From: Sphingobium yanoikuyae
GTDB taxonomy: Bacteria; Pseudomonadota; Alphaproteobacteria; Sphingomonadales; Sphingomonadaceae
Direction: 5' to 3'
Assembly: GCF_034424525.1 (NCBI RefSeq)
Contig: NZ_CP139979.1
Location: forward strand, 5,045,501 to 5,109,500
DNA length: 64,000 nt
Shown: piece after piece, positions 30,935-55,108 of the stretch
Numbering within the stretch: position 1 is the first letter of the stretch
Layout: every line of letters starts with the position of its first letter
Program-made: the position numbers and the translations under genes
The notes under the pieces: model-generated
What the model saw: the letters and a program-made list of their open reading frames with translations, nothing else
What the model was told of the DNA's origin: nothing
Databases searched by the model: none

Positions 30935-31059
30935 CGCGCGCCTGTCTGCCTGCTTGCTACTTCGCTGCGTATCATATCGATAAAGCTGCGCCTAATGCCA
31001 ATACGCCATCGCCGCCCCGTGCCAGCCTGCCGGGCATAAGAAGGATGGGAGAGGGCGGC

Positions 31060-32037: not shown

Positions 32038-32051
32038 AAGGAGCGGATGCG

Positions 32052-33038: not shown

Positions 33039-33051
33039 GCGGCAGGGACAC

Positions 33052-37220: not shown

Positions 37221-37303
37221 CTCTGGCCTATGGGCACCCCGAAAATCGCTATTTGACCCTTTGGCCGCCCCATGCCAGCCCTCGGCCCAGACAGGGGAGA
37301 GGC

Positions 37304-38272: not shown

Positions 38273-38583
38273 CGCGCGATCTCGATCCGGTCGTCCACAA
38301 TCCGCAATTCATAGACTCTGATGGGTGCCTTGGCCGGCGGGTTCATGGCGCGGCCGGTTTCCAGATCGAACCGCGCGCCATGGACCGGGCAGGCGATCCA
38401 GCCCGCGCGCACCCGGCCGCAGGCGAGCGGCTCGTCGGCATGGGAGCAGCGATTGGCGACCGCGAACAGCCGGCTATTGCTGTGGCACAGGAGGATGCTC
38501 TCGCCGTCGACATCGACGGCCTTGGCAGTGCCTGGCGGCACATCGTCGACATGGGCGACGGCGGTGAAGGTCAGCATGGTCAT
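38269..38583 (-). CDS. Rieske [2Fe-2S] ferredoxin
   Basis: A 104-residue soluble Rieske ferredoxin. Iron-sulfur ligands are C-x-H in ANRCSHADEPLACG and C-x2-H in ACPVHGARFDLETG. It resembles the BphF/CarAc-type electron carriers that feed Rieske oxygenases. ATG 38583 is taken; ATG 38577 is possible. It is divergent from the VOC-flavoprotein-SDR operon and could supply either Rieske oxygenase in the island. No ferredoxin reductase lies in the window. Confidence 0.9.
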   Translation of the reverse strand: MTMLTFTAVAHVDDVPPGTAKAVDVDGESILLCHSNSRLFAVANRCSHADEPLACGRVRAGWIACPVHGARFDLETGRAMNPPAKAPIRVYELRIVDDRIEIAR

Positions 38584-38734
38584 GGCCCCATTCATCATGG
38601 GCCGGCGGGCGCGGCAATTGCCCGCAACCCGATGCGCGCACCGGTGCAAGCGGCGCTGCCGCACGGGTCATTCCGCTTCACTGCCCCGCCTTCGATAGTG
38701 GCCGGCAGAAGAACAGAGCGGGAGAGGGCGATCC

Positions 38735-39202
38735 GTGCGCCGGGACTATTATCAGCATGCCTATGTGACCACCGACTGGCGCCGGGCGATGGACGAGATC
38801 GGCGCGCTGCACGGCATCGGCCATTATATGGAAATGCCCAACGCGCTGTTCGACACCGGGCAGGACCGGCAGGCAGTGGCCCATTTCGCGCTGGCGACCA
38901 GGGATGAACTGCAGTTCGAGATCATCCAGCCTTTGTCGGGCGACATCGCCGTCTATCAATGGGGCCTGCCGGCGGAGGGCTTTGGCCTTCATTATCATCA
39001 TCAGGGCCGGCATTTCGCCGATCGCGCCGCCTTTGACGCGGCAGTCGCGGCGGCCAAAGCGCGCTGGGCGATGCCGATCGCCTGGGACACGATGGGCGGC
39101 ACCTATGCCTATTTCGATGCGCGGGCGGATCTGGGCCATTATCTCGAATATTTCTGCTTCCCGCCCGGATCGCATCTCGAAGCGGTGCCGAGCTTCGGAT
39201 GA
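38735..39202 (+). CDS. VOC-family (glyoxalase/dioxygenase fold) protein
   Basis: A 155-residue vicinal-oxygen-chelate protein. Candidate metal ligands are H in YYQHAYVT, E in LQFEIIQPL, H in GFGLHYHHQG and E in GHYLEYF, two per beta-alpha-beta-beta-beta half. It may be an isomerase, lyase or dioxygenase. The start is GTG 38735 after GGAGAGGG. Its stop overlaps the flavoprotein start (ATGA), so it is the first gene of a three-gene coupled operon. Confidence 0.82.
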   Translation: MRRDYYQHAYVTTDWRRAMDEIGALHGIGHYMEMPNALFDTGQDRQAVAHFALATRDELQFEIIQPLSGDIAVYQWGLPAEGFGLHYHHQGRHFADRAAFDAAVAAAKARWAMPIAWDTMGGTYAYFDARADLGHYLEYFCFPPGSHLEAVPSFG

Positions 39203-40917
39203 TGGAGAGCTTCGACCTCATCGTCGTCGGATCGGGCGCGGCCGGCGCCATGGCAGCCTTGCGGGGCGCGGATCTCGGCCTCTCCGTCCTGATCGTGGAG
39301 AAGGCGCATCAATTTGGCGGCACGTCCGCGACCTCGGGCGGGGTGATGTGGGTGCCGGGCCATGGGCTGGATGGCGACCAGGGCGACAGCGCGGCCGAGG
39401 CGTTGCGCTATCTGCGCAGCGTCATCGGCGTATCGGTCGATGCGGAACGGCTGGCCGCCTATGTCGACCGCGCGCCGGAAATGCTGCGCTTCCTGAAGGA
39501 CAGCGGCGTGCCGGTGATGGCGGCGGCCTGGCCCGATTATTTCCCCGATGCACCCGGCGCGCGGGCGGATCGTTCCATCATCTGCCCCACCTTTGACGGG
39601 CGGCAATTGGGGGATGATCGCTATCCGCTGATGCGGGCGCAATATAGCCGGTTCACGCTGTTCCGCCGCTATGCGATGGACCTCAGCCAGACCTTCGCCC
39701 TGATGATGCAGCAGCGCGGCTGGCGCTGGACGGCGGCAAAGATGATCGCGCGCTACTGGCTCGACATCGGCACGCGGCGGCTGTCGGCGCGGGATCGGCG
39801 CTTCACCCAAGGGGCGGGGCTGATGGGCGCGCTCTACAAGCAGGTTTTCGCCCGCGGTGTCGAACTGCGGCTGGAAACCGCGCTGGAGGGGCTGACGCTC
39901 GCCGCCGACGGCCGCGTGTCGGGCATCACCGTCCGCCGCTTCGGGCAGGTGCAGCAGATCGCCGCGCACCATGGCGTGGTGCTGGCGGCCGGCGGCTTTG
40001 AATGGAATCAGGCGCTGCGCGAGCGTTTCTACCCGGTGCCCGGTCTCGCCCGCCACAGTTCGACCCCGGAGGAGGGCAATCGCGGCGAGGCGCTGATCGC
40101 GGCGGAGGCGATCGGCGCCTCACTCGCCCATACCGATCAGGGCTGGTGGATACCGACCATGACCCTGCCGGCGCCGGGCGCCGCCAATTTCCACGAAATC
40201 CATCAGGCCGCTTTCGATGTCGGCCGGCCGTGGAGCGTGTGCGTCAACCGGCTGGGGCTGCGCTTCGTTAATGAGGCGACCGGCTATGACCGGTTCGGCC
40301 AGGCGATGGTGGCGGATCAGGTGAAGACCGGCGCCAACATGCCCTGCTGGCTGATCTTCGACGCCAAGTTCCGGGCAAAGTTCAGCGCCGGCGGGCTGAT
40401 GCCCACGGTCCATACGCCCGATCATCGCATTCCCGGCCATTGGTGGGACCATTATGTCTTCCGCGCCGGATCGATCGAGGAACTGGCGCGCAAGATCGGC
40501 ATCGCGCCGCAGGCCTTGAGCGAAACCGTGCAGGTGATGAACGGCTATGCGCAGACCGGCGTCGATCCCGAATTTGGCCGGGGCGGCAATATCTATGATC
40601 GCTTCTTCGGCGATCCCGGCGTCACCCCCAACCCCAATCTGGGGCCGATCGATACCGCGCCCTTCTATGCCGTGCCGATCGACAATGGCGATCTGGGCAC
40701 CAAGGGCGGGCTGCGCTGCGACGCACAGGCGCGGGTGCTGGATGGCGGCGGTCGGCCGATCCCGCATCTCTATGCCGCGGGCAATTGCGCCGCGAGCCCC
40801 TTTGGCGACTGCTATCCCGGTGCCGGCGCGACGATCGGTCCGGCGCTGACCTTCGGCTTTGTCGCGGCGGAGGACATTGCGGCGCGAGCGCACGAGCAGC
40901 AGAGGATGACGGCATGA
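39199..40917 (+). CDS. FAD-dependent oxidoreductase (3-ketosteroid dehydrogenase-like)
   Basis: A 572-residue flavoprotein of the fumarate-reductase/3-ketosteroid-1-dehydrogenase group. The FAD Rossmann motif is DLIVVGSGAAGAMAAL; FGGTSATSGGVMWVPGHG is the second conserved segment, and the C-terminal FAD contact is AAGNCAASPFGDCYPGAGAT. Such enzymes introduce a double bond next to a ring ketone. The family resemblance suggests an alicyclic or steroid-like intermediate, but the substrate is not known. Coupled to both neighbours by 4-nt overlaps. Confidence 0.87.
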   Translation: MMESFDLIVVGSGAAGAMAALRGADLGLSVLIVEKAHQFGGTSATSGGVMWVPGHGLDGDQGDSAAEALRYLRSVIGVSVDAERLAAYVDRAPEMLRFLKDSGVPVMAAAWPDYFPDAPGARADRSIICPTFDGRQLGDDRYPLMRAQYSRFTLFRRYAMDLSQTFALMMQQRGWRWTAAKMIARYWLDIGTRRLSARDRRFTQGAGLMGALYKQVFARGVELRLETALEGLTLAADGRVSGITVRRFGQVQQIAAHHGVVLAAGGFEWNQALRERFYPVPGLARHSSTPEEGNRGEALIAAEAIGASLAHTDQGWWIPTMTLPAPGAANFHEIHQAAFDVGRPWSVCVNRLGLRFVNEATGYDRFGQAMVADQVKTGANMPCWLIFDAKFRAKFSAGGLMPTVHTPDHRIPGHWWDHYVFRAGSIEELARKIGIAPQALSETVQVMNGYAQTGVDPEFGRGGNIYDRFFGDPGVTPNPNLGPIDTAPFYAVPIDNGDLGTKGGLRCDAQARVLDGGGRPIPHLYAAGNCAASPFGDCYPGAGATIGPALTFGFVAAEDIAARAHEQQRMTA

Positions 40918-41678
40918 CGGAACAGAAGGTCGCGATCGTCACCGGCGCGGCAGGCGGCATTGGCGCGGCGATCGTGCGCGCCCTGTGCGCCGATGGCGTG
41001 GCCGTGCTGGGCACCGGCCGCAGCGCGGACAAGCTGGCGGCGCTGGCGGCTGCGCTGCCGCAGAACGCCGCCTTTGCCTTCGTCGCGGCGGACATTGGCG
41101 ATGAGGATGCGCCGGACAGGATCGTGGCGGAGGCACTGGCACGGTTCGGGCGGGTCGATCATCTGGTCAACAATGCCGGCGCGGGGGTGTGGGCGCCGGT
41201 GCATGACACCAGCGACGCCATGCTGGACGAAGTGATCGGCCTGTCGCTGCGCGCGCCCTTCCGCCTGTGCCGGGCCGTCCTGCCGCATATGGGCATGGGG
41301 TCGGCGATCGTCACCATTGGTTCCACCTTCGGCATCATGGGCGGAATGGATGGCGGCATCTATTGCGCGGTGAAGGCGGGGCTGATCGGCCTCACCCAGA
41401 CGATGGCGGCGCAATATGGCGAACAGGGCATCCGTTCCAACATCGTCGCGCCGACCGTGGTGCGCACGCCGATGACCGACGCCGCCTGGGACTATCCCGC
41501 CTTCCAGCGGATCAACCAGGGGCTGACGCCTTTCTATCGCGATTGCGCGCCGGAGGACGTCGCTCATGTTGTCGCCTTCCTCTGTTCCGACAAAGGCGAA
41601 TATATCAATGGCCAGGTGATCGCGGTGGATGGCGGCTGGTCGACCACCCGGATGATCAACAGCCGCTTTGCCGGCTAG
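40914..41678 (+). CDS. Short-chain dehydrogenase/reductase (1)
   Basis: A 254-residue classical SDR. The cofactor motif is TGAAGGIG, then NNAG, the serine region TIGSTFGIMGG and the catalytic YxxxK in IYCAVKAGL. It should oxidise an alcohol or reduce a ketone with NAD(P). It ends the VOC-flavoprotein-SDR operon. The stop codon TAG is also the first bases of the palindromic element at 41677. Confidence 0.91.
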   Translation: MTEQKVAIVTGAAGGIGAAIVRALCADGVAVLGTGRSADKLAALAAALPQNAAFAFVAADIGDEDAPDRIVAEALARFGRVDHLVNNAGAGVWAPVHDTSDAMLDEVIGLSLRAPFRLCRAVLPHMGMGSAIVTIGSTFGIMGGMDGGIYCAVKAGLIGLTQTMAAQYGEQGIRSNIVAPTVVRTPMTDAAWDYPAFQRINQGLTPFYRDCAPEDVAHVVAFLCSDKGEYINGQVIAVDGGWSTTRMINSRFAG

Positions 41679-41781
41679 AGCGTTCTGAAATCGGCTGGAA
41701 CAGCCGATGGCTCGCAGAATGCGAAAAAACAAAAGACAATTGGAGCGCTGGCCGATTCAATCTAATCGGCCAGCGCTCCAA
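41677..41781. repeat. Composite palindromic repeat (REP-like), overlapping a gene end
   Basis: Two inverted repeats lie side by side. The first is TCGGCTG-GAA-CAGCCGA (41691-41707) inside a weaker outer stem (GCGTTCTG near 41680 with CAGAATGC near 41716). The second is an 18-bp perfect stem, TTGGAGCGCTGGCCGATT (41740-41757) and AATCGGCCAGCGCTCCAA (41764-41781), loop CAATCT. Between them is an A-rich stretch. The right arm encodes the last residues and stop of the DUF2520 gene. It resembles dispersed extragenic palindromes of alphaproteobacteria and may also stop both convergent transcripts. Confidence 0.7.
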
Positions 41782-42625: not shown

Positions 42626-42657
42626 GGCGCGCCTATATCCCGGCCGGTGCGGCTACT

Positions 42658-43518: not shown

Positions 43519-43586
43519 CTTCTTTCCTTTTTGCGAATCGTTCGCAAAAATCTAATGGCTGGCGATCAACTTGCAAGAGCGGCTGA

Positions 43587-44786
43587 TTACCAAATGACGC
43601 GACGGGCGATCAGGTCGTCAATTTCGCTGTCACGCAATCCCAATATCTCGCTATAGACCAGATGGTTATGCTCGCCGAGCAACGGCGCGCCACGGGTGAT
43701 GCTGGCCTCGTCCGGTGTCATGCGCCAGCCCGGCCCGATGATCGGTCGTGGCTCGCCCTTGGCGTCGCTGACCATGCGATAGGCATCCAGCGCCCAGAGC
43801 GCCTCGCTGCCGATCAGGTCGAGCGAGGACTGGCTGCGAAAGGCTGGCACGCCCGCCAGAAGCAGCGCCTGCGCCATCGCTTCGGCGTCCCATTCGGGAC
43901 TGCGTTGGGCGATCGTCGCGTCGAGCGCGTCCCGATTGGCGATGCGGGCGGCCGAATCGGCGAAGCGGGGATCAACGGCCAGCACCTGCGCGTCGATCGT
44001 GGCACAGAAGGCGCGCCATTCCCGGTCATCGGCGATGGCGAGACTGATCCATTGCCCGTCGGCGCAAGGATAGCAGCCATGGGGCGCCATGGCGGCATGG
44101 GCGTTGCCCGTCACCTGCGGCAACTCGCCGGTCAGGCCATAGGCGAACAGGCTGTCACCGACCATCATCGACAGCGTCTCGACCGCTGAAAGGTCGATAA
44201 ACTGGCCCTCGCCGGTCGTTTCTCGATGGTGGAGCGCGGCGATGATCGCCAGTGCGGCGGCGGCGCCGACGGTCGAATCGCCATAGCGGATATTCATCCC
44301 CGCCGGCGTCTCGCCCGCATGGCCGACCAGCGCATTGAGCCCGCCCAGCGCCGCGAAAGAGGGGGCATAGCCGGTCTGGTAGCCGAGCGGCCCGTCGCGC
44401 CCGTACATTTTGATCGAGAGCTGGATGATGTCGGGGCGGATCGCACGGACATCCACATAGCCCAGGCCCGATCGCTCCATCGCGCCGGGCCGCAGATTGT
44501 CGATCAGCACATCGGACGCGGCGATCATCGCGCGCAGATGGGCCATGCCCTCGTCCGACTTCATGTCGAGCTGGACGCTCAGCACCTCCTGATTGATGCT
44601 GCGGAAATAGGGGGCGCTGTCGATATCGGCCCCGCCATAGGCGCGCATCTCGTCCAGATTGGCGCGGCTTTCGACCTTGATGACCTCCGCGCCGAGGAAG
44701 GCGAGCAGCTTGCCGGCATAGGGGCCGGCCCAGACCTTGGCGATCTCCAGCACACGGACACCGGCGAGCGGTCCGCCCCGGCTCAT
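43587..44786 (-). CDS. CaiB/BaiF-family CoA transferase (1)
   Basis: A 399-residue class III CoA transferase. The start LAGVRVLEIAKVWAGPYAGK with FLGAEVIKVES is typical. The catalytic aspartate is D170 in IRYGDSTVGAA. It moves CoA between acids, or racemises or eliminates in some members. Last gene of a six-gene minus-strand operon. Its ATG overlaps the stop of the second CoA-transferase gene (ATGA), so the two may form a heteromeric enzyme. Confidence 0.9.
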   Translation of the reverse strand: MSRGGPLAGVRVLEIAKVWAGPYAGKLLAFLGAEVIKVESRANLDEMRAYGGADIDSAPYFRSINQEVLSVQLDMKSDEGMAHLRAMIAASDVLIDNLRPGAMERSGLGYVDVRAIRPDIIQLSIKMYGRDGPLGYQTGYAPSFAALGGLNALVGHAGETPAGMNIRYGDSTVGAAAALAIIAALHHRETTGEGQFIDLSAVETLSMMVGDSLFAYGLTGELPQVTGNAHAAMAPHGCYPCADGQWISLAIADDREWRAFCATIDAQVLAVDPRFADSAARIANRDALDATIAQRSPEWDAEAMAQALLLAGVPAFRSQSSLDLIGSEALWALDAYRMVSDAKGEPRPIIGPGWRMTPDEASITRGAPLLGEHNHLVYSEILGLRDSEIDDLIARRVIW

Positions 44787-45895
44787 CGCAGCATCGCCTG
44801 ATCGGCGCCGGGTGCGGGGGCCGGGCTGTGCAGCACCACCGGCGAGGCGCTCATGCGATAGGGGACGGTCGGATGCAGCGCACCGCCCAGCGACTGGAAG
44901 AAGCCGCGATGCCGATATTGGACATGGTCGATCAGGTCGGCGGCGCTGTTGACCTGCACCAGCGGCACGCCCGCCTGCTGCGCCGCCTGCGCCACGACAT
45001 CCTTGGCCTGGGTCGCGATCCAGGCGCGGAAATGCCGGCGGAAATCGGTGACCCGGTCGCGCGTGCAATGATATTCCAGCCAGTCCTCCGGGAAGGCATC
45101 GGCCCAGTCGGGATCGCCCATCAGCGCACACAGCCCGCGCCAGTGCGCGCGCGTCGTCATCAGCAGATAGACATGGCCGTCGGCGCAGACGAAGGCGGCG
45201 CCCGGCCCGCCCATGTCATAGCGAGTGCGTTCCGGCCCCGGTTCCGCATCCCCGGCCAGCATCCGCCCCAGCACGCAGTCGGCGCGCGACAGTTGCACGG
45301 CGACCTCGCTGATGTCGATCGCCTGTCCCATGCCGGTCCGCCGCTTGCGCAGCAGCGACGCGGCGGTGCAGAGCGCGGCCTCCAGCCCCGCCTCATAATC
45401 GCTCATGAACCGGCCTGCGCCCATCAGCGGCGGCCGATCAGGTGCGCTCTCGCTGGGCGTGTGCCAGGCCCAGCCGCCGGCATTCATAACGTTGATCGGG
45501 CGCGCGACCTGCCAATGGGGCGGGGCGTCCTGGCCAAAGGGCGTGATCGCGCAATGGACGATATCGGGCTGGCTCCCCAGCGCCAGTCCGTGCTGCGTCG
45601 CCCAGTCCGGCCCATGATCGTCGATTAGCGCATCGGCGCGCGCCAGCAGCCGGTCGAGCAGGGCGCGGTCCTGCGGCGCATCGAGGTCGAGCTGCACCGA
45701 TTTCTTGTTGCTGTTGAGGTAGCGGAACAGCGTGCTCTGCCCGTCATGAAACGGCCCCATGGCGCGGGTCGGGGCGCCGCCGGGCGCTTCGACCTTTATC
45801 ACCTCCGCGCCGAAATCGGCCAGCAACCGGGCGGCAAATTCGCCCGTCACCCGCTCTGCCGTCTCCACGATCACCAGCCCGGCCAGCGCCGTCAC
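44783..45895 (-). CDS. CaiB/BaiF-family CoA transferase (2)
   Basis: A 370-residue class III CoA transferase, clearly different from its neighbour. Family segments are LLADFGAEVIKVEAPGG and NSNKKSVQLDLDAPQD; the catalytic aspartate is D166 in RFMSDYEAG. The start is GTG 45895-45893, overlapping the HyuA stop (GTGA). Pairing of two unequal CaiB proteins, each with its aspartate, suggests a heterodimer or two successive CoA-transfer steps. Confidence 0.88.
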   Translation of the reverse strand: MTALAGLVIVETAERVTGEFAARLLADFGAEVIKVEAPGGAPTRAMGPFHDGQSTLFRYLNSNKKSVQLDLDAPQDRALLDRLLARADALIDDHGPDWATQHGLALGSQPDIVHCAITPFGQDAPPHWQVARPINVMNAGGWAWHTPSESAPDRPPLMGAGRFMSDYEAGLEAALCTAASLLRKRRTGMGQAIDISEVAVQLSRADCVLGRMLAGDAEPGPERTRYDMGGPGAAFVCADGHVYLLMTTRAHWRGLCALMGDPDWADAFPEDWLEYHCTRDRVTDFRRHFRAWIATQAKDVVAQAAQQAGVPLVQVNSAADLIDHVQYRHRGFFQSLGGALHPTVPYRMSASPVVLHSPAPAPGADQAMLR

Positions 45896-47979
45896 GACTG
45901 GCGCACCAACAGATAGTCGCCGACATCATCGACCCGCGCCTGCCAGCCGGGATAGACGGCGATGGTGGTGAAGACCTCCTCGATGATCGCCGGGCCGGTG
46001 ACGCGGGCGCCGGGGATCAGGTCCGGCCCCTTGTGGATCGCGACATCGGCAAAGCCATCGCCCAGATTGGCGCGGCGATGGGCATGGGGCGCGGGTTCCA
46101 CGACCGGCGCGGTGAAGCCGCCACCGGCGGGCGGCATCGGCGTTTCGACCTGGGCGGTCAGGCGCACGCCGGTGATTTCCGGCACCTCGCCTTCGCGGAC
46201 ATGGCCATATTCGGCCAGATGCCGCGCGTTGAAGGCGGCGATGGCGCGGGCCGACAGCGTCTCGTCGACAAAGCCCAGATCATCCAGCCCCCGGCCTTCA
46301 TGCAGGTCGAAGGTCAGCGCCCAATTCTGCCCGGCATAGCGCATCGCCACCCGCCAACGGGCCTGCACCGCCTCGGCGGCAAAGCCGGCTTCGGCAAAAT
46401 GCGCGGCGGCATCGGCGGCCAGGTCGGCCCACAGGCCGCGCAGCCGGTCGAGGTCCAGCGCATCGGCGGGCGCGCTGCACGATCGTTCCTCGTCGATCGC
46501 CGGATGGGCGACCAGCGTGCCGAGCGCGGAGAAAGTGGGGGAGGCGCGGGGCACCAGCACCTGGTCGATCCCCAGATCCTGCGCCTGGATCGCGGCGAAG
46601 GCCGGGCCGTTGCCGCCATAGGCGAGCATCGCCATGTCGGTCGGATCCATGCCCTTGGCCGCCGTCGTGCGCCGCACCGCCTGGGTCATATTGGCGTTGA
46701 CCAGCCGCCAGCAATCGAACGCTGCCTGCTGCGCATCATAGCCCAGCTCCGCGCCCAATGCCGCGAACGCCTCCGCCACGCCCTCGTCGCGCAGGCGGAA
46801 ACTGCCGCCGGCAAAGCCTTCGCCGGTGGAGAGGATGCCCAGCATCAGCAGCGCGTCGGTCACGGTCGGCCGCAAGCCGCCCCGGCCATAGCAGATCGGC
46901 CCCGGCGCCGCGCCGGCGGAGGCAGGCCCGACCTTCAGTTCGCCCTTGTCGACATGGCAGATCGATCCGCCACCCGCGCCCAGCGTCTCCACCTGCACCA
47001 TCGGCACACCGACCAGATAGCGATGATGCATGTTCCATCCCGCTTCGGCCGGCGCGGCGCCGTCCTGCACCACCGACATGTCGTAACTGGTGCCGCCCAT
47101 GTCGACGCACAGCAGGTTGCGATAGCCCTTGGCGCCGCCGGTCCGCGCCGATGCGATGACGCCGCCGGCCGGGCCGGAAGCGAGCAGGCGGATCGGCGCG
47201 GCTTCGATGTAAGCGCGGGTCATGACCCCGCCGGACGCCTGCATCACCATCAATTGCTTTGCATAGCCGGCGTCGGCGAGCCGACTGACCAGTCGTTCGA
47301 GATAGGCGTTCACGCGCGGCGCGACATAGGCGTTCACCACCGTCGTGCTGATCCGGTCATATTCCGGCGCGCGCGACAGGATGCGGTGCCCAAGCGAGAC
47401 GGGGATGCCGGGCATCTCCTCCGCCACGATCTGCGCCACCCGATCCTCATGATCGCCATTCACATGGGCGAAGATCAGGCCGATCGCGACGGATTCGACC
47501 CCTTGCTTGCGCAGCTTGGTGCAGGCCTCGCGCACCGCCTCTTCGTCCAGTGCCTCATGCACGCTGCCATCGGCCAGCACCCGTTCGGGCACGGTCAGGC
47601 GGCGGCGGCGCGGCACTATCGGGATCGGCGGCTCCAGCCGCACGTCCCAGATGCTTTCCTTGTAGCCGCGTCGATATTCCATCTCGTCGCGGAAACCCTG
47701 GGTGGTGATGAGGCCGGTGACGGCACCGTCCATCTCGATCAATATATTGTCGGCGACGGTGGTGCCGTGGACGATCGCCTCGCAGCGCTGGAGGAAGTCG
47801 CCCAGCGACAGCCCCTCCTTGCCGGCCAGCGTCTCCAGTCCTTCCATCACGCCAATCGAGCGATCCTGTGGGGTGCTGAGATTCTTGTGCAGGATGACCT
47901 GACCGTCCTTTGGCCCATCCTTCAACAGGGCGAAGTCGGTGAAGGTGCCGCCAATATCGATGCCGACGCGATAGCTCAT
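45892..47979 (-). CDS. Hydantoinase A / ketone-carboxylase-type ATPase subunit
   Basis: A 695-residue HyuA-family protein with the actin-like ATPase start YRVGIDIGGTFTDFALL, the second phosphate loop LLCVDMGGTSYDMSVV and ATP-binding LLASGPAGGVIASA. The family covers ATP-dependent N-methylhydantoinase, 5-oxoprolinase and acetone or acetophenone carboxylase subunits; the segment FRDEMEYRRGYKESIWDVRL looks closer to the latter group, but this is inference. ATG 47979 overlaps the HyuB stop. It should act with HyuB and two CoA transferases. Confidence 0.9.
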   Translation of the reverse strand: MSYRVGIDIGGTFTDFALLKDGPKDGQVILHKNLSTPQDRSIGVMEGLETLAGKEGLSLGDFLQRCEAIVHGTTVADNILIEMDGAVTGLITTQGFRDEMEYRRGYKESIWDVRLEPPIPIVPRRRRLTVPERVLADGSVHEALDEEAVREACTKLRKQGVESVAIGLIFAHVNGDHEDRVAQIVAEEMPGIPVSLGHRILSRAPEYDRISTTVVNAYVAPRVNAYLERLVSRLADAGYAKQLMVMQASGGVMTRAYIEAAPIRLLASGPAGGVIASARTGGAKGYRNLLCVDMGGTSYDMSVVQDGAAPAEAGWNMHHRYLVGVPMVQVETLGAGGGSICHVDKGELKVGPASAGAAPGPICYGRGGLRPTVTDALLMLGILSTGEGFAGGSFRLRDEGVAEAFAALGAELGYDAQQAAFDCWRLVNANMTQAVRRTTAAKGMDPTDMAMLAYGGNGPAFAAIQAQDLGIDQVLVPRASPTFSALGTLVAHPAIDEERSCSAPADALDLDRLRGLWADLAADAAAHFAEAGFAAEAVQARWRVAMRYAGQNWALTFDLHEGRGLDDLGFVDETLSARAIAAFNARHLAEYGHVREGEVPEITGVRLTAQVETPMPPAGGGFTAPVVEPAPHAHRRANLGDGFADVAIHKGPDLIPGARVTGPAIIEEVFTTIAVYPGWQARVDDVGDYLLVRQS

Positions 47980-49781
47980 GCCGCGATCCGCTCCCCGCGC
48001 AATGCTGCCGTGGCGGCATGGTCCACCGCCAGGCTGTAATCTTCGATGGCGCCGGTCAGCACCACGCCATAAAGGTCGCGGGCGGCGGTGATGCTCACCA
48101 GTTCGTCCAGCACATCCTCGCACACCGCCTGCGGATCGCGGCGCAGCGCCGGGCCGAAGCCCGCGCCGCCGCCATGCTGATAGGCAATGACGGCCCCCGC
48201 CGGCAGTTGCGCCCGCGCCGTCAGCTCGACCCGATATTCGTCGGGCGTCCCGACCTGAAAATGATTGAGATAGGGGGTGCCGTCGGCACCACCGGCGAGG
48301 CCACTGATCGGATGATCGTGGCTGACCATCCAGGCCATCGCCATCGCCGGTTCCAATATCCGTTTCACGTTGCGGCTACCCGGCATACCACGCCACTGGC
48401 CCGCGCCGCCGCTGTCGGTGACCAGTTCGCGGCTGATGTTGATGACCGGGAAGCGCGCCTCGCCATCCTCCGCCTGCGACAGCAGCAGATTGCCGAGCGA
48501 GACCGGGCAGCTGCCCCAGCCATCGATACCCTGCACGGCGGATACGTCCATCGACCGGCAATCGACGCCCTGGTCCATCCACATCTGGCCGCCCGCGTCG
48601 AAGCCGATCACCGCATTGGGCATGCCGATCTTGTAGACCTGCGGCGCGGACCGGTCCGGCGCGACCTGCGACAGGGCGACGCACACTGCCTCGGTAATCT
48701 CGCAGGCGGGGTGGAAGGAGCCGAGCGCCGCCGGGCGGTTGGGCGCGGGGTGGGCGATGCAGCCTTCGGGCAGGATGATCTCGACCGCGTTGAACAGCCC
48801 TTCATTCTTGACGATGTCGGGATCGATGCTGGCGGCGATCTGGGTCATGATATAGCCGCGCGAATTGGCAAAGGTGTTCCACACCCCGACCAGATCCTGC
48901 CGATCGTCGGTGCCGTTGAGGTCGACGGTCAGCTGGTCGCCGGCCACGGTGCAGCCGACCTGGACGCGGATATCCCTGGTCCCCATCGTGTCATGATCGA
49001 TATGGACGGTCGCGCCATAATGGCCGTCGCGCCAGGCGGAGACGGTGGCGCGCATCTGCCGTTCCGACTGGTCGATCGCATGATTGACCGCGGCCCGCAC
49101 CGCGTCGGCCCCCCATTTGTCGAGGATCGCGCGGATCGATACGGTCGCCTTCTCGACCGCGCCGATCATCGCGGCGAGATCGCCGGCGAAGCTGGGGAAA
49201 CGGTTGTTGCGTTCGAGCAGGTGGATGGCATCGCGCCGCTTCTGCCCGCGATGGACCAGCTTCAGGCAGGGGATGGCCAGGCCTTCGGTGAAGATGTCGG
49301 TGGCGTCGAGGGTGAAGCCGCCCGGATCCTTGCCGCCGGTATCGCCCTGATGCGCCTGCAGCGCCTGCACCAGCACCAGTTCGCCCGCCGCGTCATAGAC
49401 CGGGGCATAGACATTATAGTCGGGCAGGTGGCCCCCGCCATAATCGGGGTCGTTGCCGACGAACACATCACCCGGCCCCCAGTCATAATCCTGCTGCTGC
49501 ATCAGCCCATAACGGACGGTGAGCTGCGACACGAAGGTCAGATGCGGCGTGCCGATCGACCCCATGGCCAGCCGGCCATGGGCATCGACGATCGCCGCAT
49601 TGCGCTCGTTCGACTGGTTGATGATCGGCGAGGAAGCGGCACGGCCGAGATGGGTTGTCGCCTCATAGCAGACGGTTTCCAGCGCGCCGCGAATGATGCT
49701 GGCCGTGACCGGATCGATCACCGTCGCGGTCGGCAGGGGCGGGCGCTTGGCGGCCAGCCGGGCGTTGAGGGCAAAGGACAT
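47976..49781 (-). CDS. Hydantoinase B / ketone-carboxylase-type subunit
   Basis: A 601-residue HyuB-family protein, the partner of HyuA. Family segments are SSPIINQSNERNAAIVDAHG, GDVFVGNDPDYGGGHLPDYN and the later AHQGDTGGKDPGGF. Complete at both ends. The two subunits together use ATP to hydrolyse a lactam or to carboxylate a ketone in known relatives. Its start lies 9 bp after the Rieske gene stop and its stop overlaps HyuA by 4 nt. Confidence 0.91.
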   Translation of the reverse strand: MSFALNARLAAKRPPLPTATVIDPVTASIIRGALETVCYEATTHLGRAASSPIINQSNERNAAIVDAHGRLAMGSIGTPHLTFVSQLTVRYGLMQQQDYDWGPGDVFVGNDPDYGGGHLPDYNVYAPVYDAAGELVLVQALQAHQGDTGGKDPGGFTLDATDIFTEGLAIPCLKLVHRGQKRRDAIHLLERNNRFPSFAGDLAAMIGAVEKATVSIRAILDKWGADAVRAAVNHAIDQSERQMRATVSAWRDGHYGATVHIDHDTMGTRDIRVQVGCTVAGDQLTVDLNGTDDRQDLVGVWNTFANSRGYIMTQIAASIDPDIVKNEGLFNAVEIILPEGCIAHPAPNRPAALGSFHPACEITEAVCVALSQVAPDRSAPQVYKIGMPNAVIGFDAGGQMWMDQGVDCRSMDVSAVQGIDGWGSCPVSLGNLLLSQAEDGEARFPVINISRELVTDSGGAGQWRGMPGSRNVKRILEPAMAMAWMVSHDHPISGLAGGADGTPYLNHFQVGTPDEYRVELTARAQLPAGAVIAYQHGGGAGFGPALRRDPQAVCEDVLDELVSITAARDLYGVVLTGAIEDYSLAVDHAATAALRGERIAA

Positions 49782-49790
49782 GAGCCTGCC

Positions 49791-51200
49791 TCAGCGTCCG
49801 GGCCGCAGCGGCGGCATGGCGACATAGCGGTCGACCGCCTGCTCGAAATGGCGGATGCGGATTTCCTGATAATTGCCCAGCGTCAGGCCGCGCTTGGCGC
49901 TCGCCTCTATCCCTTCCTGTTGCAGGAACAGATTGTCGGTATCCTGATCGAGAATCCTGCCAAAGCCCGCATCCATGCCCGGCGCCTCGCAGAAGCTCTG
50001 ATCGTCGGTCAGCAGGATCGGTTCGGCCGGTTCGGGGCGGGCGCCACCATCCGGCACCGGCCGCAGGAAGAACACCTCATAGATGCAGCGGCGATGGTCC
50101 CTTGGGTCCGGGCGGAAGCGATAGACCATCGGCAGCGACACGCCGGGGAAGAGATAGGTGTTGGGGAAGAGCGTGTAGGAGAAACAGTCGAGCATCTCGC
50201 TGTCGGATGTGGCGCTCAGGTCGCTGCCGGTCGCCGCGCCGAACATGGTGCGGAACAGGTCGGCCATCGCCTGGCGCGCGGTGCCGTTGCCCACTTGCGG
50301 CCGATCCTCGCTCAGCACGGACGCGTCGCCGACGGTGAACTGGTCGAGAATATCCTGCTCGGAAAAGCGCCCCTCCAGATGCGGCGATGCGACGCCCAGG
50401 CAGGAGATGAAGCGGTTCACATGATTGCCATAGACATCATATTGGCTGTTCGCGTCGGCATTGGACGGGGCGACCTGCGGGTGGGTCTCGATCACATGAT
50501 AGGCCTCCATGAAGGCCTCGATCGTCAGCTTCCAGTTGGCCGGAAAGCTCTTCTGGACATGGAGGTGGATATAGCGATCCTCCAGCTTCCACGCCTTTAT
50601 ATGGGCCAGCGCCTCGGCGCCCAGATACTCTTCCAGGTTGGGCGCATCCGGGTCCATGTTGATCCACACGAACCCGCCCAGCGTCTGCACGCGGACCTGC
50701 GGCAGGGCGTTGTTGGCCGGGTCGACATGGGGGAAGTCCCAGGGGCAGGTGATGCTCTTGCTGGACCCATCCACGTTCCAGCTCCAGCCATGGAAACTGC
50801 ATTTGAACTCGCTGGCACAGCCTGCCGATCCCGAGGCGCGTAGCTTGGTGCCGCGATGCAGGCAGGCGTTGTAATAGGCACGGATTTCGTCCGCCGCGAC
50901 GCGGGTGATGATGAAGCTGTGGCGGCCGATCTCATAGACCTGATAGTCGCCGACCTCCGGTATATGCTCTTCGCGGCAGGCGAATTGCCAGCTGCGCGTC
51001 CACAGGCTTTCCATCTCGCGCCGGGCAAAATCGGGGTCGATATAGCGATCGGTGGAAATGTCCTCGCTGCCCAGGAAGGCGTAAGATTCACTGCGCACCC
51101 AGCCGGGCGCGGCGATCCTGTCGCGGGCGATGATGTCCTGCGTGCTGATCGCCGGGCAGCGGGCGTCGCCCGCCGCCATCGGGCCGCTTTCCATGTTCAT
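49791..51200 (-). CDS. Rieske-type ring-hydroxylating oxygenase, large subunit (2)
   Basis: A 469-residue Rieske oxygenase alpha subunit, similar in plan to the one at 33052 but clearly diverged. [2Fe-2S] ligands are C113-x-H115 in ACLHRGTKL and C134-x2-H137 in CSFHGWSWN. The mononuclear iron site is near EAFMEAYHVIETHPQ (E232, H235, H240). No beta subunit is adjacent. Its ATG overlaps the amidohydrolase stop by 4 nt, tying oxygenation to the hydrolase and HyuAB steps. Confidence 0.91.
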   Translation of the reverse strand: MNMESGPMAAGDARCPAISTQDIIARDRIAAPGWVRSESYAFLGSEDISTDRYIDPDFARREMESLWTRSWQFACREEHIPEVGDYQVYEIGRHSFIITRVAADEIRAYYNACLHRGTKLRASGSAGCASEFKCSFHGWSWNVDGSSKSITCPWDFPHVDPANNALPQVRVQTLGGFVWINMDPDAPNLEEYLGAEALAHIKAWKLEDRYIHLHVQKSFPANWKLTIEAFMEAYHVIETHPQVAPSNADANSQYDVYGNHVNRFISCLGVASPHLEGRFSEQDILDQFTVGDASVLSEDRPQVGNGTARQAMADLFRTMFGAATGSDLSATSDSEMLDCFSYTLFPNTYLFPGVSLPMVYRFRPDPRDHRRCIYEVFFLRPVPDGGARPEPAEPILLTDDQSFCEAPGMDAGFGRILDQDTDNLFLQQEGIEASAKRGLTLGNYQEIRIRHFEQAVDRYVAMPPLRPGR

Positions 51201-52489
51201 GCAACTCTCCGTTGGGCGGGCGTGGCACAGTCGGTCAGGCCGGGCGCGATGCGGTGGATCGCGCCGTCCTTCATCACCATGGCCAGCCGGTTTTTGTCTT
51301 CGAGGATGGTGACGTCGGCCAGGGGATCGCCGTCCACCAGCAGCATGTCGGCGAGCGCGCCGGGCACCAAAGTGCCCAGATCGCCCTGGTCGCGCATCGC
51401 CTGCCCGCCATTGCGGGTGGCACAGGCCAGCGCGCCGGCCGCGTCATAGCCATAATAGTCGATCATCAGCTGGATATCGCGGGCGTTGGTGCCCTGCGGG
51501 TTCCAGGCCAGGCCATAATCGCCGCCGATCAGGTGGCGGATGCCGCGCTTGCGCAACGCGCTGTGCGTCTCGACCGATGCCTCGATCAGTGCGGGGATGC
51601 CCATCGCGTCGCAGGCGGCCCGGCTGATCCACGGCTCGCCATGATGGATCATCGCGTGGAACAGCCCGATCGAGGGCGCGATGACAATCCGGTCCTTCGC
51701 TTCCTCCAGCATGTCGAGCAGTTCGCTGTCGGCATATTCGACATGGAACAGGCCATCGCCCCCGGCGCGGACGCAATATTTGCTGCCCTCTATCGACCGG
51801 CTATGGGCGTTCACCTTGCGGCCGAAGGCATGGGCGGTGTCGACTGCCATCTGCACTTCCGCGAAACTCATCGGCGTTACATGGGCCGGGCTGCCGGGAT
51901 AGAAGGGGTCGCCCGAGACATCGAGCTTGATATTGTCGCAGCCCTCGCGGATCGCTAGCCGCACAGCGCGGCGCATCTCCTCCGGCCCGTCGACGACACA
52001 GGAAATGCCGATGCGCGGATTGTGCAGCCTGCTTTCGTCGCCCATGCCGCCGGTGACGGTGATCTCGGTCGATCCGGCGCGGATGCGGGGGCCGGGGATA
52101 TGGCCGGCATCGACCGCGTCGCGCACCGCCACGTCCAGCTTCAGCTTGGCGGCCGATGCGCCATAGCAGCTGGTGAACCCCTGATCGATCAGGCGCCGGG
52201 CCATGCGCGCGGTGATGAGCGTATGGGCTTCGGGCGAGGGCGCGATCAGATCCTCGGTCGAGGCCGCGTCGCCAAAGGAGATATGGGCATGGCCTTCGGT
52301 GAGGCCCGGCATCAGCGTCTTGCCGCTGCCGTCGATGACCTGATCGGCCGGCGCACGACCGGCGGTGGCATCCGGCCCGACCGCAAGGATGCGGTTGCCT
52401 TCAATCAGTAGGTCGCCGACAAAGGCGGGGCTGCCGGTGGCGTCCCAGATGGTGGCGTTGGTGATGAGCGTGGTCGACACGGACGGCAT
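51197..52489 (-). CDS. Amidohydrolase family protein (imidazolonepropionase-like)
   Basis: A 430-residue metal-dependent hydrolase of the amidohydrolase superfamily. Metal ligands include HAH in LTEGHAHISFGD, later VNAHSRSIEG and HVEYAD, and an aspartate in IGGDYGLAWNP. The final LVPGALADMLLVDGDPLADV is the typical C-terminal beta domain. It may hydrolyse an amide, lactam or lactone ring. First gene of the six-gene minus-strand operon, and divergent from the ferredoxin-P450 operon across a 179-bp gap. Confidence 0.88.
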   Translation of the reverse strand: MPSVSTTLITNATIWDATGSPAFVGDLLIEGNRILAVGPDATAGRAPADQVIDGSGKTLMPGLTEGHAHISFGDAASTEDLIAPSPEAHTLITARMARRLIDQGFTSCYGASAAKLKLDVAVRDAVDAGHIPGPRIRAGSTEITVTGGMGDESRLHNPRIGISCVVDGPEEMRRAVRLAIREGCDNIKLDVSGDPFYPGSPAHVTPMSFAEVQMAVDTAHAFGRKVNAHSRSIEGSKYCVRAGGDGLFHVEYADSELLDMLEEAKDRIVIAPSIGLFHAMIHHGEPWISRAACDAMGIPALIEASVETHSALRKRGIRHLIGGDYGLAWNPQGTNARDIQLMIDYYGYDAAGALACATRNGGQAMRDQGDLGTLVPGALADMLLVDGDPLADVTILEDKNRLAMVMKDGAIHRIAPGLTDCATPAQRRVA

Positions 52490-52668
52490 CCTCTTCTGCC
52501 CGCCAGACTAGGCTGCGGCCGCCCGCCGCCCAATGACTGCACGCGCACTTGGCATGTCCTCTCGCCGCCGCCCGGCCTGCCGCGCCAGTCAAGCGGCTGC
52601 GCGGCGCCATGCCTTTCCGCGTCCGGCGCCATCGGCCATCCTGCCCCTTCATGAGGAGAAGGATGTCG
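52490..52668. promoter_or_regulatory. Divergent control region of the two oxygenase operons
   Basis: A 179-bp gap between the outward-reading amidohydrolase and ferredoxin genes must hold promoters for both operons. It is GC-rich. The ribosome site for the ferredoxin (GAGGAGAAGG) is at its right end. I see no clear hexamers or strong palindrome. Confidence 0.5.
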
Positions 52669-52986
52669 ATGGTGCGGGTCACCTTTGTGGATGTGCATGG
52701 CGTGGAGCAGGCGGTTGCCGGGGAGGGCGACCTGTCGCTGATGGAACTGGCCAAGGCGAACGGGATCGACGGCATTGCCGCCGACTGTGGTGGTGCCTGT
52801 TCCTGCGCGACCTGCCTGGTCCATGTCGATCCGGCCTGGGTCGATCGCACCGGCGCGCCCGACGATGTCGAATATGCGATGCTCGACATGGTGTCCGATG
52901 TCGCCGGCGACACCAGCCGCCTCGCCTGTCAGATCCGCCTGACGCCGGCGCTCGACGGCCTGCGCGTCGTGGTGGCGCAGCAATGA
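52669..52986 (+). CDS. [2Fe-2S] ferredoxin (adrenodoxin/putidaredoxin type)
   Basis: A 105-residue plant/vertebrate-fold ferredoxin. The cluster ligands follow C-x5-C-x2-C in CGGACSCATCLVHV, with the fourth cysteine in SRLACQIRL. An extra cysteine lies inside the loop. This is the class that donates electrons to bacterial P450s, and it overlaps the P450 gene by 4 nt. ATG 52669 is preferred for spacing; ATG 52663 is possible. Its reductase is not in the window. Confidence 0.9.
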   Translation: MVRVTFVDVHGVEQAVAGEGDLSLMELAKANGIDGIAADCGGACSCATCLVHVDPAWVDRTGAPDDVEYAMLDMVSDVAGDTSRLACQIRLTPALDGLRVVVAQQ

Positions 52987-54263
52987 CGCAAGGCACCCTG
53001 GCGCCCGAAGCGCGCAGCCTGCTCGACACGGCGTCGATGACCGATCCGATCATCTCGGCGCGGCCGCGCGCTTATTATGCGGCGATGCGGTCGTTCGACC
53101 CGGTCCATTGGGACGAGAAGCTCGGCATGTATCTGGTGTCTCGCTATGAGGATATTGCCACGATCCAGCAGGATCCGATCACCTATTCGGTCAACAAGGG
53201 CTATCACACGCAGCAGGCCAAGGGCTTCCAGCAGGAGTTCCAGGAGATATTGGAGCGAGACGGCGGCGGCTATTTCCCCGACGCGATCATGTCCGATCCG
53301 CCCTATCACACCCGCATCCGCAAGCTGATGGAAAAGGCGTTCAGCGCCCATCGCGTCAAGGAACTGGAGCCGCGGATCGAGAAGGTGGTGATCGACCTGA
53401 TCGACAGCGTCGCCGACCGGGGCGAGGCGGACGCAGTGCAGGATTTCGCGGTGCCGCTGACGGTGCGGATCATCTGCGAGCAACTCGGCCTCGACTGGAA
53501 CATGAAGGACCGCATCGCGCGCTGGTCGATCGCGGTGACGGCCCAGATCGGCCGGATGCAGGATCGGGAACAGATGCTGGGCCATGCGCGCGAGATTTGC
53601 GACCTGCAGCACTATCTGATCGCCAAGATGCGCGAGCGCGAGGCCGACCCGCGCGAGGACATGATTTCCGACCTGGTCCATGCCCGCGATGCCGAGGGGC
53701 AGGCGTTGACCTTTGCCGAGGCTGTGTCGCTGATCCGGGCGCTGCTGATCGCCGGCAATGAGACGACGGCGACCGCGCTCGGCAATCTCTTCTACATCCT
53801 CGCGACCCGGCCGGAGATTGCCACCTTGTTGCAAGCGTCGGTGGACGACGACCGGTTGATGAACCGTTTTGTCGAGGAGTTGCTGCGGATCGAACCACCG
53901 GTGCGCGGCCTGTCGCGCATGACCACGCGCGAAGTGGAACTGGGCGGCAAGACGCTGCCGGCGGGCGCGCATCTGCTGCTCATGTATGCCTCCGCCAACG
54001 ATCAGGAGGATGTGTTCCCCGATCCACGCCGCTTCGATCTCGACCGACCCAATATCGGTCGGCACCTGTCCTTTGGCGGCGGCGTCCATCGCTGCATCGG
54101 CCTCGCGCTCGCGCGGATGGAGATAAAGGTCGCCGCGCGCGAGATCGTCCGGCGGATCGGCGATATCGAACTGGCGATCGCGCCCGAGGAGATACGCTAT
54201 CTGCCCACGGTCGCGACCCAGTCGATCGAGCGGTTGCCGATCCGCTTCACCCGGCGGGGTTGA
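52983..54263 (+). CDS. Cytochrome P450
   Basis: A 426-residue soluble bacterial P450. The I-helix oxygen-binding motif is AGNETT (257-262), the ExxR is E299-LLR302, and the heme-binding loop FGGGVHRCIG has C371 as thiolate ligand. It should hydroxylate a hydrophobic substrate, probably an early step of the pathway. The ferredoxin gene directly upstream, coupled by ATGA, is its likely electron donor. The CYP family cannot be assigned by eye. Confidence 0.94.
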   Translation: MTQGTLAPEARSLLDTASMTDPIISARPRAYYAAMRSFDPVHWDEKLGMYLVSRYEDIATIQQDPITYSVNKGYHTQQAKGFQQEFQEILERDGGGYFPDAIMSDPPYHTRIRKLMEKAFSAHRVKELEPRIEKVVIDLIDSVADRGEADAVQDFAVPLTVRIICEQLGLDWNMKDRIARWSIAVTAQIGRMQDREQMLGHAREICDLQHYLIAKMREREADPREDMISDLVHARDAEGQALTFAEAVSLIRALLIAGNETTATALGNLFYILATRPEIATLLQASVDDDRLMNRFVEELLRIEPPVRGLSRMTTREVELGGKTLPAGAHLLLMYASANDQEDVFPDPRRFDLDRPNIGRHLSFGGGVHRCIGLALARMEIKVAAREIVRRIGDIELAIAPEEIRYLPTVATQSIERLPIRFTRRG

Positions 54264-54268
54264 GGCGC

Positions 54269-55108
54269 ATGGCAGGGGAACTGGCGGGCAAGGTCGCCAT
54301 CGTCACCGGCGGCGCGGGCGGCATCGGCCGGGCCACGGTGGAATTGTTCGTCGCCGAAGGGGCGAGGGTGCTGATCGCCGACCGCGATGGGACGGCCGGC
54401 ACCGCGCTGGCGGCCGCGCTCGGGCCATCGGCGCTGTTCATGGCCGTCGATGTCGCCGACCGGGCGCAGGTGCAGGCGATGGTCGCGCGCGCGGTCGATG
54501 CCTTTGACGGGTTGCACATATTGTTCAACAATGCCGGGATCAGCTGCGCGCCCTTCCCGCATTTCCTGGATGACAGCCTGGCCGATTTCGACCGGGTGAT
54601 GGCGGTCAATCTGCTGGGGCCGATGCTGGGAACGCAGGCGGCGGCCCGGCACATGAAGGATCATGGCGGCGGCGTCATCCTCAACAACGCCTCGATCGCG
54701 GGCCTGCTCGCCGGACAGGCGATGATGAGCTATCGCGCGTCGAAGGCGGGACTGATCCAATTCTCCAAGTCGGTGGCGATCGACCTGGCGCAGCATGGCA
54801 TCCGCGTGAACTGCCTGGTGCCCGGCCATATCCGCACCAGCCTGTCCTCCTTCAGCGCCCAGGGGGCAGAGGCGGACCGGGCGGCGCGGGTCGATGCCGC
54901 GATCGACGCGGTCTATCTCTCCAACCAGCCCTTGAAGCGGCGTGGCGTACCGGACGACGTGGCGCAGGCGGCCCTGTTTCTGGCCAGCGACCGCGCGCGC
55001 CAGATCACCGGCATCGCCATGCCGGTCGAGGGCGGGGTGGTTGCCGGCGATCCGGTCAACCATCTGGAGGATATATTGGCGGCGCGGGCTCAGGCGCTTT
55101 CCGACTGA
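54269..55108 (+). CDS. Short-chain dehydrogenase/reductase (2)
   Basis: A 279-residue classical SDR. TGGAGGIG cofactor loop, NNAG, catalytic serine region LNNASIAG and YRASK (Y-x3-K). It probably oxidises the alcohol made by the P450. ATG 54269 is chosen; a TTG at 54260 overlapping the P450 stop (TTGA) is an alternative. The end overlaps the convergent double-TetR gene by 19 bp. Confidence 0.9.
   Translation: MAGELAGKVAIVTGGAGGIGRATVELFVAEGARVLIADRDGTAGTALAAALGPSALFMAVDVADRAQVQAMVARAVDAFDGLHILFNNAGISCAPFPHFLDDSLADFDRVMAVNLLGPMLGTQAAARHMKDHGGGVILNNASIAGLLAGQAMMSYRASKAGLIQFSKSVAIDLAQHGIRVNCLVPGHIRTSLSSFSAQGAEADRAARVDAAIDAVYLSNQPLKRRGVPDDVAQAALFLASDRARQITGIAMPVEGGVVAGDPVNHLEDILAARAQALSD

Follow-up and report, generated by a model that had tools for sequence, protein, structure and literature searches.

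Described relatives and the six-gene operon

Several of the described enzymes that come closest to the system studied here belong to the HyuAB superfamily, whose hydrolases and carboxylases can be told apart by gene number, gene order, phylogeny and length, while substrate-site consensus motifs failed in this respect (PMC5214803; this paper and PMC8453981, PMC8360864, PMC11659651 and PMC7996341 are cited from excerpts). The system in question is a six-gene operon of Sphingobium yanoikuyae, located in a 64,000-nucleotide stretch of contig NZ_CP139979.1 (hereafter the window) and encoding an amidohydrolase (AmHyd), a Rieske oxygenase, HyuB, HyuA and two CaiB-type proteins, CaiB1 and CaiB2. Its gene content, gene overlaps, conservation, co-inheritance and active-site residues were observed directly; with somewhat less than even confidence, we suggest that the operon forms the core of a conserved aerobic catabolic module that would combine oxidation, ATP-dependent opening of a lactam or amide, and CoA transfer. 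The enzyme families are all known, and what appears to be new is their combination, its co-inheritance and a clade of Glu-type HyuB proteins.

By score, the closest solved relative of the window HyuAB pair is the caprolactamase CapAB from Pseudomonas jessenii, which likewise has two subunits of similar length, the ATP motifs and the His-Asp of the metal site (PMC8453981); a CapB-CapA coding sequence is mentioned in the same paper. The structure 6yra, deposited as '5-oxoprolinase' and 'Hydantoinase', is here taken for CapAB, as its motif numbering fits PMC8453981. CapAB differs in having Asp41 where the window HyuB has Glu59, the window proteins score far below the NCBIfam cut-offs of the caprolactamase equivalog models NF050156 and NF050157 (547 and 235, against 1000), and the window genes are set among Rieske, P450 and CaiB genes. 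Acetone carboxylase (5svb, 5m45) is a member of the same superfamily with a Glu at the gating/metal position, but has a third subunit, longer subunits and lower similarity to the window proteins. Acetophenone carboxylase Apc (5l9w; PMC5214803) is also a superfamily member whose carboxylate product is activated next, however, it is encoded by four to five subunit genes, has an Asp at the site and is followed by a CoA ligase rather than a CoA-transferase.

Among pathways, the nearest described logic of a lactamase plus a CoA-transferase appears to be the iaa pathway of Aromatoleum aromaticum (PMC5214803, PMC8360864, PMC11659651). A lactam-opening gamma-lactamase of indoleacetate metabolism, placed in the hydrolase branch (PMC5214803), and the family III CoA-transferase IaaL (PMC8360864) both belong to this pathway. 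In contrast to the proposed module, it is anaerobic and begins with the CoA ligase IaaB, followed by the acyl-CoA mutase IaaGH and the dehydrogenase IaaF, and its described passages contain no Rieske oxygenase, unlike the window. Two family III subunits, as in the window, are found in the benzylsuccinate CoA-transferase (9fn0) and in SptAB, the latter known from PMC11659651. No description of the six-gene set was found among the listed matches in open-licence PMC papers, and to that extent the statement of the original prediction that no described pathway contains this set still holds.

The six genes lie on the minus strand in the following order, as established from the sequence and its open reading frames (ORFs), with families assigned by Pfam:

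51197..52489, minus strand: amidohydrolase (AmHyd, Amidohydro_1; E = 1.7e-23), first gene of the operon
49791..51200, minus strand: Rieske oxygenase alpha subunit (PF00355/PF00848)
47976..49781, minus strand: HyuB (Hydantoinase_B; E = 1.7e-109), metal-site subunit, nearest solved structure 6yra_B
45892..47979, minus strand: HyuA (Hydantoinase_A), ATP-binding subunit, nearest solved structure 6yra_A
44783..45895, minus strand: CaiB1, family III CoA-transferase subunit (CoA_transf_3), GTG start
43587..44786, minus strand: CaiB2, family III CoA-transferase subunit (CoA_transf_3)

The overlapping arrangement that had been predicted is thus confirmed, with the 4-nt overlap ATGA at the AmHyd/Rieske, HyuB/HyuA and CaiB1/CaiB2 junctions, GTGA at HyuA/CaiB1, and a single 9-bp gap between Rieske and HyuB (49782-49790). 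The raw ORF list places the starts of HyuA and CaiB2 further upstream (48123 and 45131), and the starts chosen here are those that yield the 4-nt overlaps. The same overlaps occur elsewhere in the locus, at the ferredoxin/P450, short ORF/FAD enzyme and FAD enzyme/short-chain dehydrogenase (SDR) junctions, and also at P450/SDR if the SDR uses a TTG start; they are therefore a general style of the locus and do not mark out the six genes. That the genes are real follows from the 55 HyuB relatives of 63-98% identity found in the genome collection and from the identical six-gene order in Sphingobium scionense, S. indicum BiD32 and Sphingobium sp. AS12. The genome itself comprises 5.53 Mb in seven contigs, and its close kin are Sphingobium, the S. 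scionense HyuB being 98% identical.

Recurrence and co-inheritance of the gene set

Support for a common role comes from the distribution of the genes. HyuB relatives of at least 63% identity were found in 55 loci, and for all of these except L040 the genome (54 in total) was searched for the Rieske oxygenase, which gave a match of at least 63% identity in 48 (18 of 18 and 30 of 36 in two rounds), although in two of the 48 (the genomes of L045 and L052) the Rieske gene is only partial or in pieces. In most Novosphingobium the Rieske and HyuB loci lie apart, yet they are inherited together. The amidohydrolase is present in 36 of the 43 genomes searched for it and was also seen in the fetched regions of the remaining 11; it was not found in seven of the 43, namely six genomes that also have no Rieske ortholog and the genome of L013, where the Rieske gene sits at a contig end.

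A control sample of 298 genomes of the family gave the same picture, with HyuB and Rieske orthologs present in exactly the same five genomes and none with one alone; the HyuB orthologs are at least 72% identical (next best 44%) and the Rieske orthologs at least 71% (next best 53%). Among the five listed genomes of genus g96, two have both genes and three have neither. Three of the five positive genomes are apparently also among the 54, as judged from identical coordinates. In a class-wide sample of 385 genomes, either ortholog was found in the S. yanoikuyae genome only, so that this sample is uninformative on co-occurrence.

Since the set recurs elsewhere and HyuBA is co-inherited with the Rieske/AmHyd pair even when unlinked, the distribution supports the view that the six products serve one function, as had been proposed. 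It also disposes of one of the two outcomes named in advance as refuting that proposal, absence of the set from every other genome, and renders unlikely the other, that HyuAB is an ordinary oxoprolinase or hydantoinase with no connection to the oxygenase.

The order of individual gene pairs is strictly kept: AmHyd lies ahead of Rieske in 60 of 60 loci, HyuB ahead of HyuA in 67 of 67, and CaiB1 ahead of CaiB2, on the same strand, in all 36 loci where both occur (where loci of a genome overlap, each is counted). The order and completeness of the module as a whole vary among Sphingobium, Sphingomonas, a Caulobacter metagenome-assembled genome (MAG), Nitrospirillum, Novosphingobium PhB57, Solimonas, Stenotrophobium and several environmental MAGs. 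The common unit in the 20 Novosphingobium stretches fetched, a few of which end at contig limits, consists of SDR-P450-ferredoxin divergent from AmHyd-Rieske-(others)-CaiB1-CaiB2. Genes for a luciferase-like oxidoreductase, a ChsH2-type protein and a thiolase often come after this unit, and HyuBA is located elsewhere.

The sole other HyuB match in the S. yanoikuyae genome (L001, G000:C1:3672120-3673706) is a 1212-residue frame with 30% identity, likely a fused 5-oxoprolinase-type protein. A search for plasmid homologs returned no HyuB at E 1e-60, and within the 60-80% band the one plasmid-borne Rieske gene is a truncated copy (L148, 20007-20969 of NZ_CP119128.1 from Sphingobium sp. WTD-1), which is about 68% identical to that of the window, adjoins an IS256 transposase and lies near another amidohydrolase gene.

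Active-site features of the operon proteins

The HyuA and HyuB proteins belong to the superfamily by their Pfam domains (PF05378, PF01968 and PF02538) and ATP motifs, the motifs GIDIGGTFTDF, DMGGTS and GAAPGP being found at HyuA residues 6, 293 and 356. HyuA scores 393 bits against 6yra_A, 388 against the N-methylhydantoinase 7hk5, 260 against acetophenone carboxylase and 218 against acetone carboxylase; the HyuB scores in the same order are 209, 175, 91 and 62. The presence of two genes only, with no gamma subunit gene in the operon, fits the hydrolase (Hyd) branch, and so does the length of HyuB, which at 601 residues is close to the 581 in 6yra and not to the 684 and 776 in the carboxylases, the latter value being that of acetone carboxylase. 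HyuA has 695 residues, compared with 696 in 6yra_A, 717-727 in acetone carboxylase, and 732 and 658 in the acetophenone carboxylase chains. The apcABCD(E) gene set of acetophenone carboxylase with its second ATP subunit has no parallel in the operon, which has one HyuA and one HyuB. A match to the gamma subunit family PF08882 (AcxC) was not found in the S. yanoikuyae genome, although the control gave no match either. Taken together, the bit scores, gene number and HyuB length favour an assignment to the hydrolase branch.

The metal site consists of Asp41-His99-Asp102-His124 in CapB and of Glu89-His150-Asp153-His175 in acetone carboxylase, where Glu89 is the gating residue (PMC8453981). In the window HyuB the His-Asp of the site is conserved and the third metal-site His is residue 144, residue 143 being an Ala, while Glu59 aligns with CapB Asp41, Apc Asp65 and acetone carboxylase Glu89. 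A Glu is found at this position in all 58 distinct sequences of at least 60% identity that reach the site (62 are distinct, and four fall short; fragments of one gene may count twice) and in the single homolog at 40-60% identity, whereas all 26 homologs below 40% have an Asp. As acetophenone carboxylase, a true carboxylase, has an Asp there, the Glu is not a mark of carboxylases.

Both CaiB proteins have the CoA_transf_3 domain and the catalytic Asp of family III, in agreement with the predicted CoA-transferase family. The conservation of the Asp differs between the two, however, with Asp170 of CaiB2 kept in 28 of 28 distinct orthologs and Asp166 of CaiB1 in 23 of 30. The exceptions are an Ala in Sphingomonas 35-24ZXX and in an actinobacterium-labelled MAG (59-64% identity), and a Ser in the Caulobacter MAG, Solimonas, Novosphingobium PhB57, Nitrospirillum and Stenotrophobium (46-50% identity), five cases that may trace to one event. 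Chain A of 9fn0 has an Ala at the position of CaiB1 Asp166, where the window CaiB1 still has an Asp; CaiB1 scores 94.5 bits against chain A and 81.9 against chain B, and CaiB2 163.3 against chain B and 87.4 against chain A. As the Asp of CaiB2 is invariant while that of CaiB1 is sometimes lost, the pair probably forms one heteromeric CoA-transferase with CaiB2 as the catalytic subunit and CaiB1 as its non-catalytic partner, rather than carrying out two separate CoA steps.

Rieske alpha subunits are recognized by the CxH/CxxH cluster ligands and the 2-His-1-carboxylate iron site. The corresponding residues of the window protein are kept throughout its distinct orthologs, with C113, H115, C134, H137, H235 and H240 invariant in 41 of 41 and D422 present in 40, and no beta-subunit family was detected among the neighbouring proteins run through Pfam. 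Glu232, which we initially took to be a hint of carnitine-type monooxygenases, was dropped as uninformative, since a Glu is found in all 24 scorable distant Rieske homologs (16 below 38% identity and eight at 38-60%). In AmHyd, the candidate metal ligands H67, H69, K188, H229, H249 and D324 are invariant in 38 of 38 distinct orthologs, and its nearest solved relatives, most of which hydrolyse peptides or amides, include the L-Arg carboxypeptidase Cc2672 along with other amidohydrolases.

The wider locus, a candidate pathway and its alternatives

When the window proteins were placed on extended regions of 14 other genomes, the operon appeared as the core of a larger conserved module, which includes the following features:

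52663..52986, plus strand: 2Fe-2S ferredoxin, divergent from the operon (ORF and cysteine pattern; a start at 52651 is possible)
52983..54263, plus strand: cytochrome P450 (Pfam p450), overlapping the ferredoxin gene by 4 nt and conserved alongside the operon
54260..55108, plus strand: SDR (Pfam), kept beside the P450 in relatives
39199..40917, plus strand: KstD-like FAD enzyme (FAD_binding_2), homologs in 12 of 14 mapped regions
40914..41678, plus strand: second SDR (NCBIfam SDR matches), homologs in other regions
38269..38664, minus strand: Rieske-type ferredoxin (NCBIfam HcaC-type ferredoxin, below cut-off), homologs in other regions
38735..39202, plus strand: short ORF of 155 residues, VOC-like by eye only, no NCBIfam match, homologs in 4 of 14 mapped regions
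35574..37220, plus strand: AMP-forming acyl-CoA ligase (NCBIfam ligase matches below cut-off)
34384..35577, plus strand: MaoC/FAS1-type dehydratase (Pfam), homologs in other regions
32920..34377, plus strand: second Rieske oxygenase (Pfam), 66-97% identical homologs in 5 of 14 mapped regions
32001..33038, plus strand: AraC-type regulator (Pfam HTH_18), 5′ limit uncertain, homologs in other regions
31045..32037, plus strand: enoyl-CoA hydratase family (Pfam), homologs in other regions

Nearly the whole set is found in S. scionense, S. indicum and Sphingomonas 35-24ZXX, and a small ferredoxin-like protein accompanies the P450 in many Novosphingobium loci. The best NCBIfam match of the FAD enzyme is 3-ketosteroid-delta-1-dehydrogenase at 476 bits (cut-off 789). 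The acyl-CoA ligase has homologs of 59-95% identity in the Sphingobium, Sphingomonas, Solimonas and Nitrospirillum regions, the one from S. indicum having the Pfam AMP-binding domain, while in the stretches of four MAGs (G303, G304, G305 and G307) neither the ligase nor the MaoC gene was seen. The six genes of the original prediction therefore stand, but its boundary was drawn too narrowly, as the divergent ferredoxin-P450-SDR genes and the ligase, FAD enzyme and MaoC/enoyl-CoA hydratase genes accompany the operon; CoA activation without a synthetase, which it had also suggested, is not supported given the ligase in the locus and in several relatives.

Several further elements were noted in the locus. 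Between CaiB2 and a methyltransferase gene lies a candidate operator (43532-43546), a perfect palindrome core TGCGAATCGTTCGCA except for the centre base, with A/T-rich flanks. The methyltransferase and a DUF2520/Rossmann protein (41762-43518, minus strand) are encoded between the operon and the FAD enzyme/SDR genes, and the pair is kept in S. scionense but not at the same place in S. indicum BiD32 and Sphingobium sp. AS12. A nucleoside-hydrolase-like protein with a signal sequence recognized by eye only (37253-38272, plus strand) is found within the catabolic locus and has a counterpart only in S. scionense among the 14 mapped regions. A 494-residue ORF (55090-56574, minus strand) has two Pfam TetR_N stretches, the best at residues 309-355, and NCBIfam matches also at approximately 95-147, and possibly represents a fused double TetR regulator.

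In the candidate pathway, the ferredoxin-fed P450 with the SDR, and the Rieske oxygenase, would oxidise a compact ring compound, and the amidohydrolase would make one hydrolytic cut. An intermediate with a lactam or other amide bond would then be phosphorylated at its carbonyl by HyuA at the expense of ATP, after which the metal centre of HyuB would finish the hydrolysis to yield a free carboxylate. The CaiB1/CaiB2 enzyme would move CoA onto this carboxylate, with succinyl-CoA or a second site on the same molecule as the donor, and the thioester would be broken down in beta-oxidation-type steps by enzymes of the enoyl-CoA hydratase, MaoC and thiolase types. What we infer here is in which order the steps occur, that HyuAB hydrolyses and does not carboxylate, where the CoA comes from, and to which class the substrate belongs.

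A nearby aminotransferase would fit the opening of a lactam or amide, and the caprolactam pathway includes a transaminase (PMC8453981). In 17 of the 55 loci, a class I/II aminotransferase gene adjoins hyuB or lies close to it, in divergent orientation (L018, L019, L022, L025-L029, L032, L033, L035, L038, L039, L043, L052, L053 and L057), and in G172 the distance between the aminotransferase and Rieske genes is approximately 10 kb. In a search of ten genomes, it was present in all five with HyuBA and in two of the five without. Many of the aminotransferase-HyuBA loci are also near dnaB- and ftsH-like genes.

A number of observations weigh against lactam or amide opening as part of a single module. 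The aminotransferase passes a generic model and also occurs in the two genomes without HyuBA, thus its link may be incidental, and none of the genes clustered in the window was recognized as nitrogen-handling; with its KstD-like, P450 and Rieske members, this cluster has a terpenoid- or steroid-like appearance. Glu59 occupies the position at which caprolactamase and hydantoinase have their Asp ligand and agrees with the residue in acetone carboxylase. Under the published rule that the ATP-binding subunits of hydrolases are more than 100 residues shorter than that of acetone carboxylase (PMC5214803), the length of HyuA is equivocal, and the published A-then-B gene order is reversed, with HyuB first in every locus. 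Two distant HyuBA pairs have other oxygenases as direct neighbours, an RPE65-type oxygenase downstream in L047 (3077-6607) and an FMO-type monooxygenase upstream in L042 (8457-11824). As for the unity of the module, six of the 54 HyuB genomes have no Rieske ortholog (those of L006, L042, L047, L048, L049 and L056, which are one Novosphingobium MAG, one 1.6-Mb MAG and four distant lineages), and no CaiB was seen in the fetched stretches of G303, G304, G305, G307 and G306, the last being an 11-kb contig where the Rieske gene alone was found. In addition, co-inheritance in part reflects shared ancestry, and relatedness inflates the counts.

The alternative that best survives, though still on the unlikely side, is that HyuAB is a two-subunit, biotin-free, ATP-dependent ketone carboxylase, in which case an alicyclic or methyl ketone made by the P450/SDR and other oxidations would be converted to a beta-keto acid, turned by CaiB1/CaiB2 into a beta-ketoacyl-CoA and cleaved by thiolase or crotonase. 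The clade-wide Glu59 with its counterpart in acetone carboxylase speaks for it, as do the ketone-making or -using P450, SDR and KstD-like FAD enzyme in the vicinity, the thiolase, ChsH2-type protein and luciferase-like oxidoreductase of many Novosphingobium units, and the FMO-type and RPE65-type neighbours of the distant HyuBA. The similarity scores and the HyuB length point instead to the hydrolase branch by the distinctions of PMC5214803, the operon has no gamma subunit gene (PF08882 being unmatched in the genome, as was the control), and acetophenone carboxylase has an Asp at the Glu59 position. A more speculative and somewhat more doubtful proposal is that of a third HyuAB kind, a two-subunit, Glu-gated, biotin-free carboxylase (or CoA-ester lactamase) for oxidised plant- or microbe-derived cyclic compounds, which would feed a heteromeric CoA-transferase in an undescribed aerobic pathway of Alpha- and Gammaproteobacteria.

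It seems unlikely that HyuBA and the CaiB pair act in a later part of the pathway than Rieske and AmHyd, for example on a nitrogen-containing side product, with co-inheritance arising through a common growth substrate rather than through consecutive steps. The separation of HyuBA from the Rieske/CaiB unit in most Novosphingobium and the six Rieske-less HyuB genomes would agree with such a division, but the six genes form one tight series in the window and in three Sphingobium relatives, and co-occurrence is perfect in the 298-genome family sample. Chance or selfish-cluster grouping of promiscuous enzymes with no common pathway is highly improbable and largely refuted by the co-occurrence data. 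Although genera differ in how genes are arranged around the core, and some of the stretches retrieved lack members of the set, these families turn up again in named Alpha- and Gammaproteobacteria as well as environmental MAGs, and co-occurrence holds when the genes are unlinked.

Two described degradation systems were considered as sources of a substrate and rejected. The main text of PMC10653915, a Sphingobium paper on tomatine and steroidal alkaloid degradation, has no mention of hydantoinase, Rieske, P450, CoA-transferase, CaiB or amidohydrolase, and that of PMC11630574 on the indoleacetate iad/iac operons none of hydantoinase, Rieske, amidohydrolase or 'CoA transferase'. Abscisic acid would be a guess; Novosphingobium sp. 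P6W, which degrades it, is named without pathway genes in the excerpts of PMC7996341.

Enzymes of the HyuAB superfamily are often labelled 'hydantoinase' without evidence, and the locus offers a tightly linked and co-inherited test case with a clade-specific active-site change at Glu59. The identity of the substrate would tell what the Glu-type enzymes do, and would also name a catabolic pathway that a number of sphingomonads share with a few other bacteria of soil and water.

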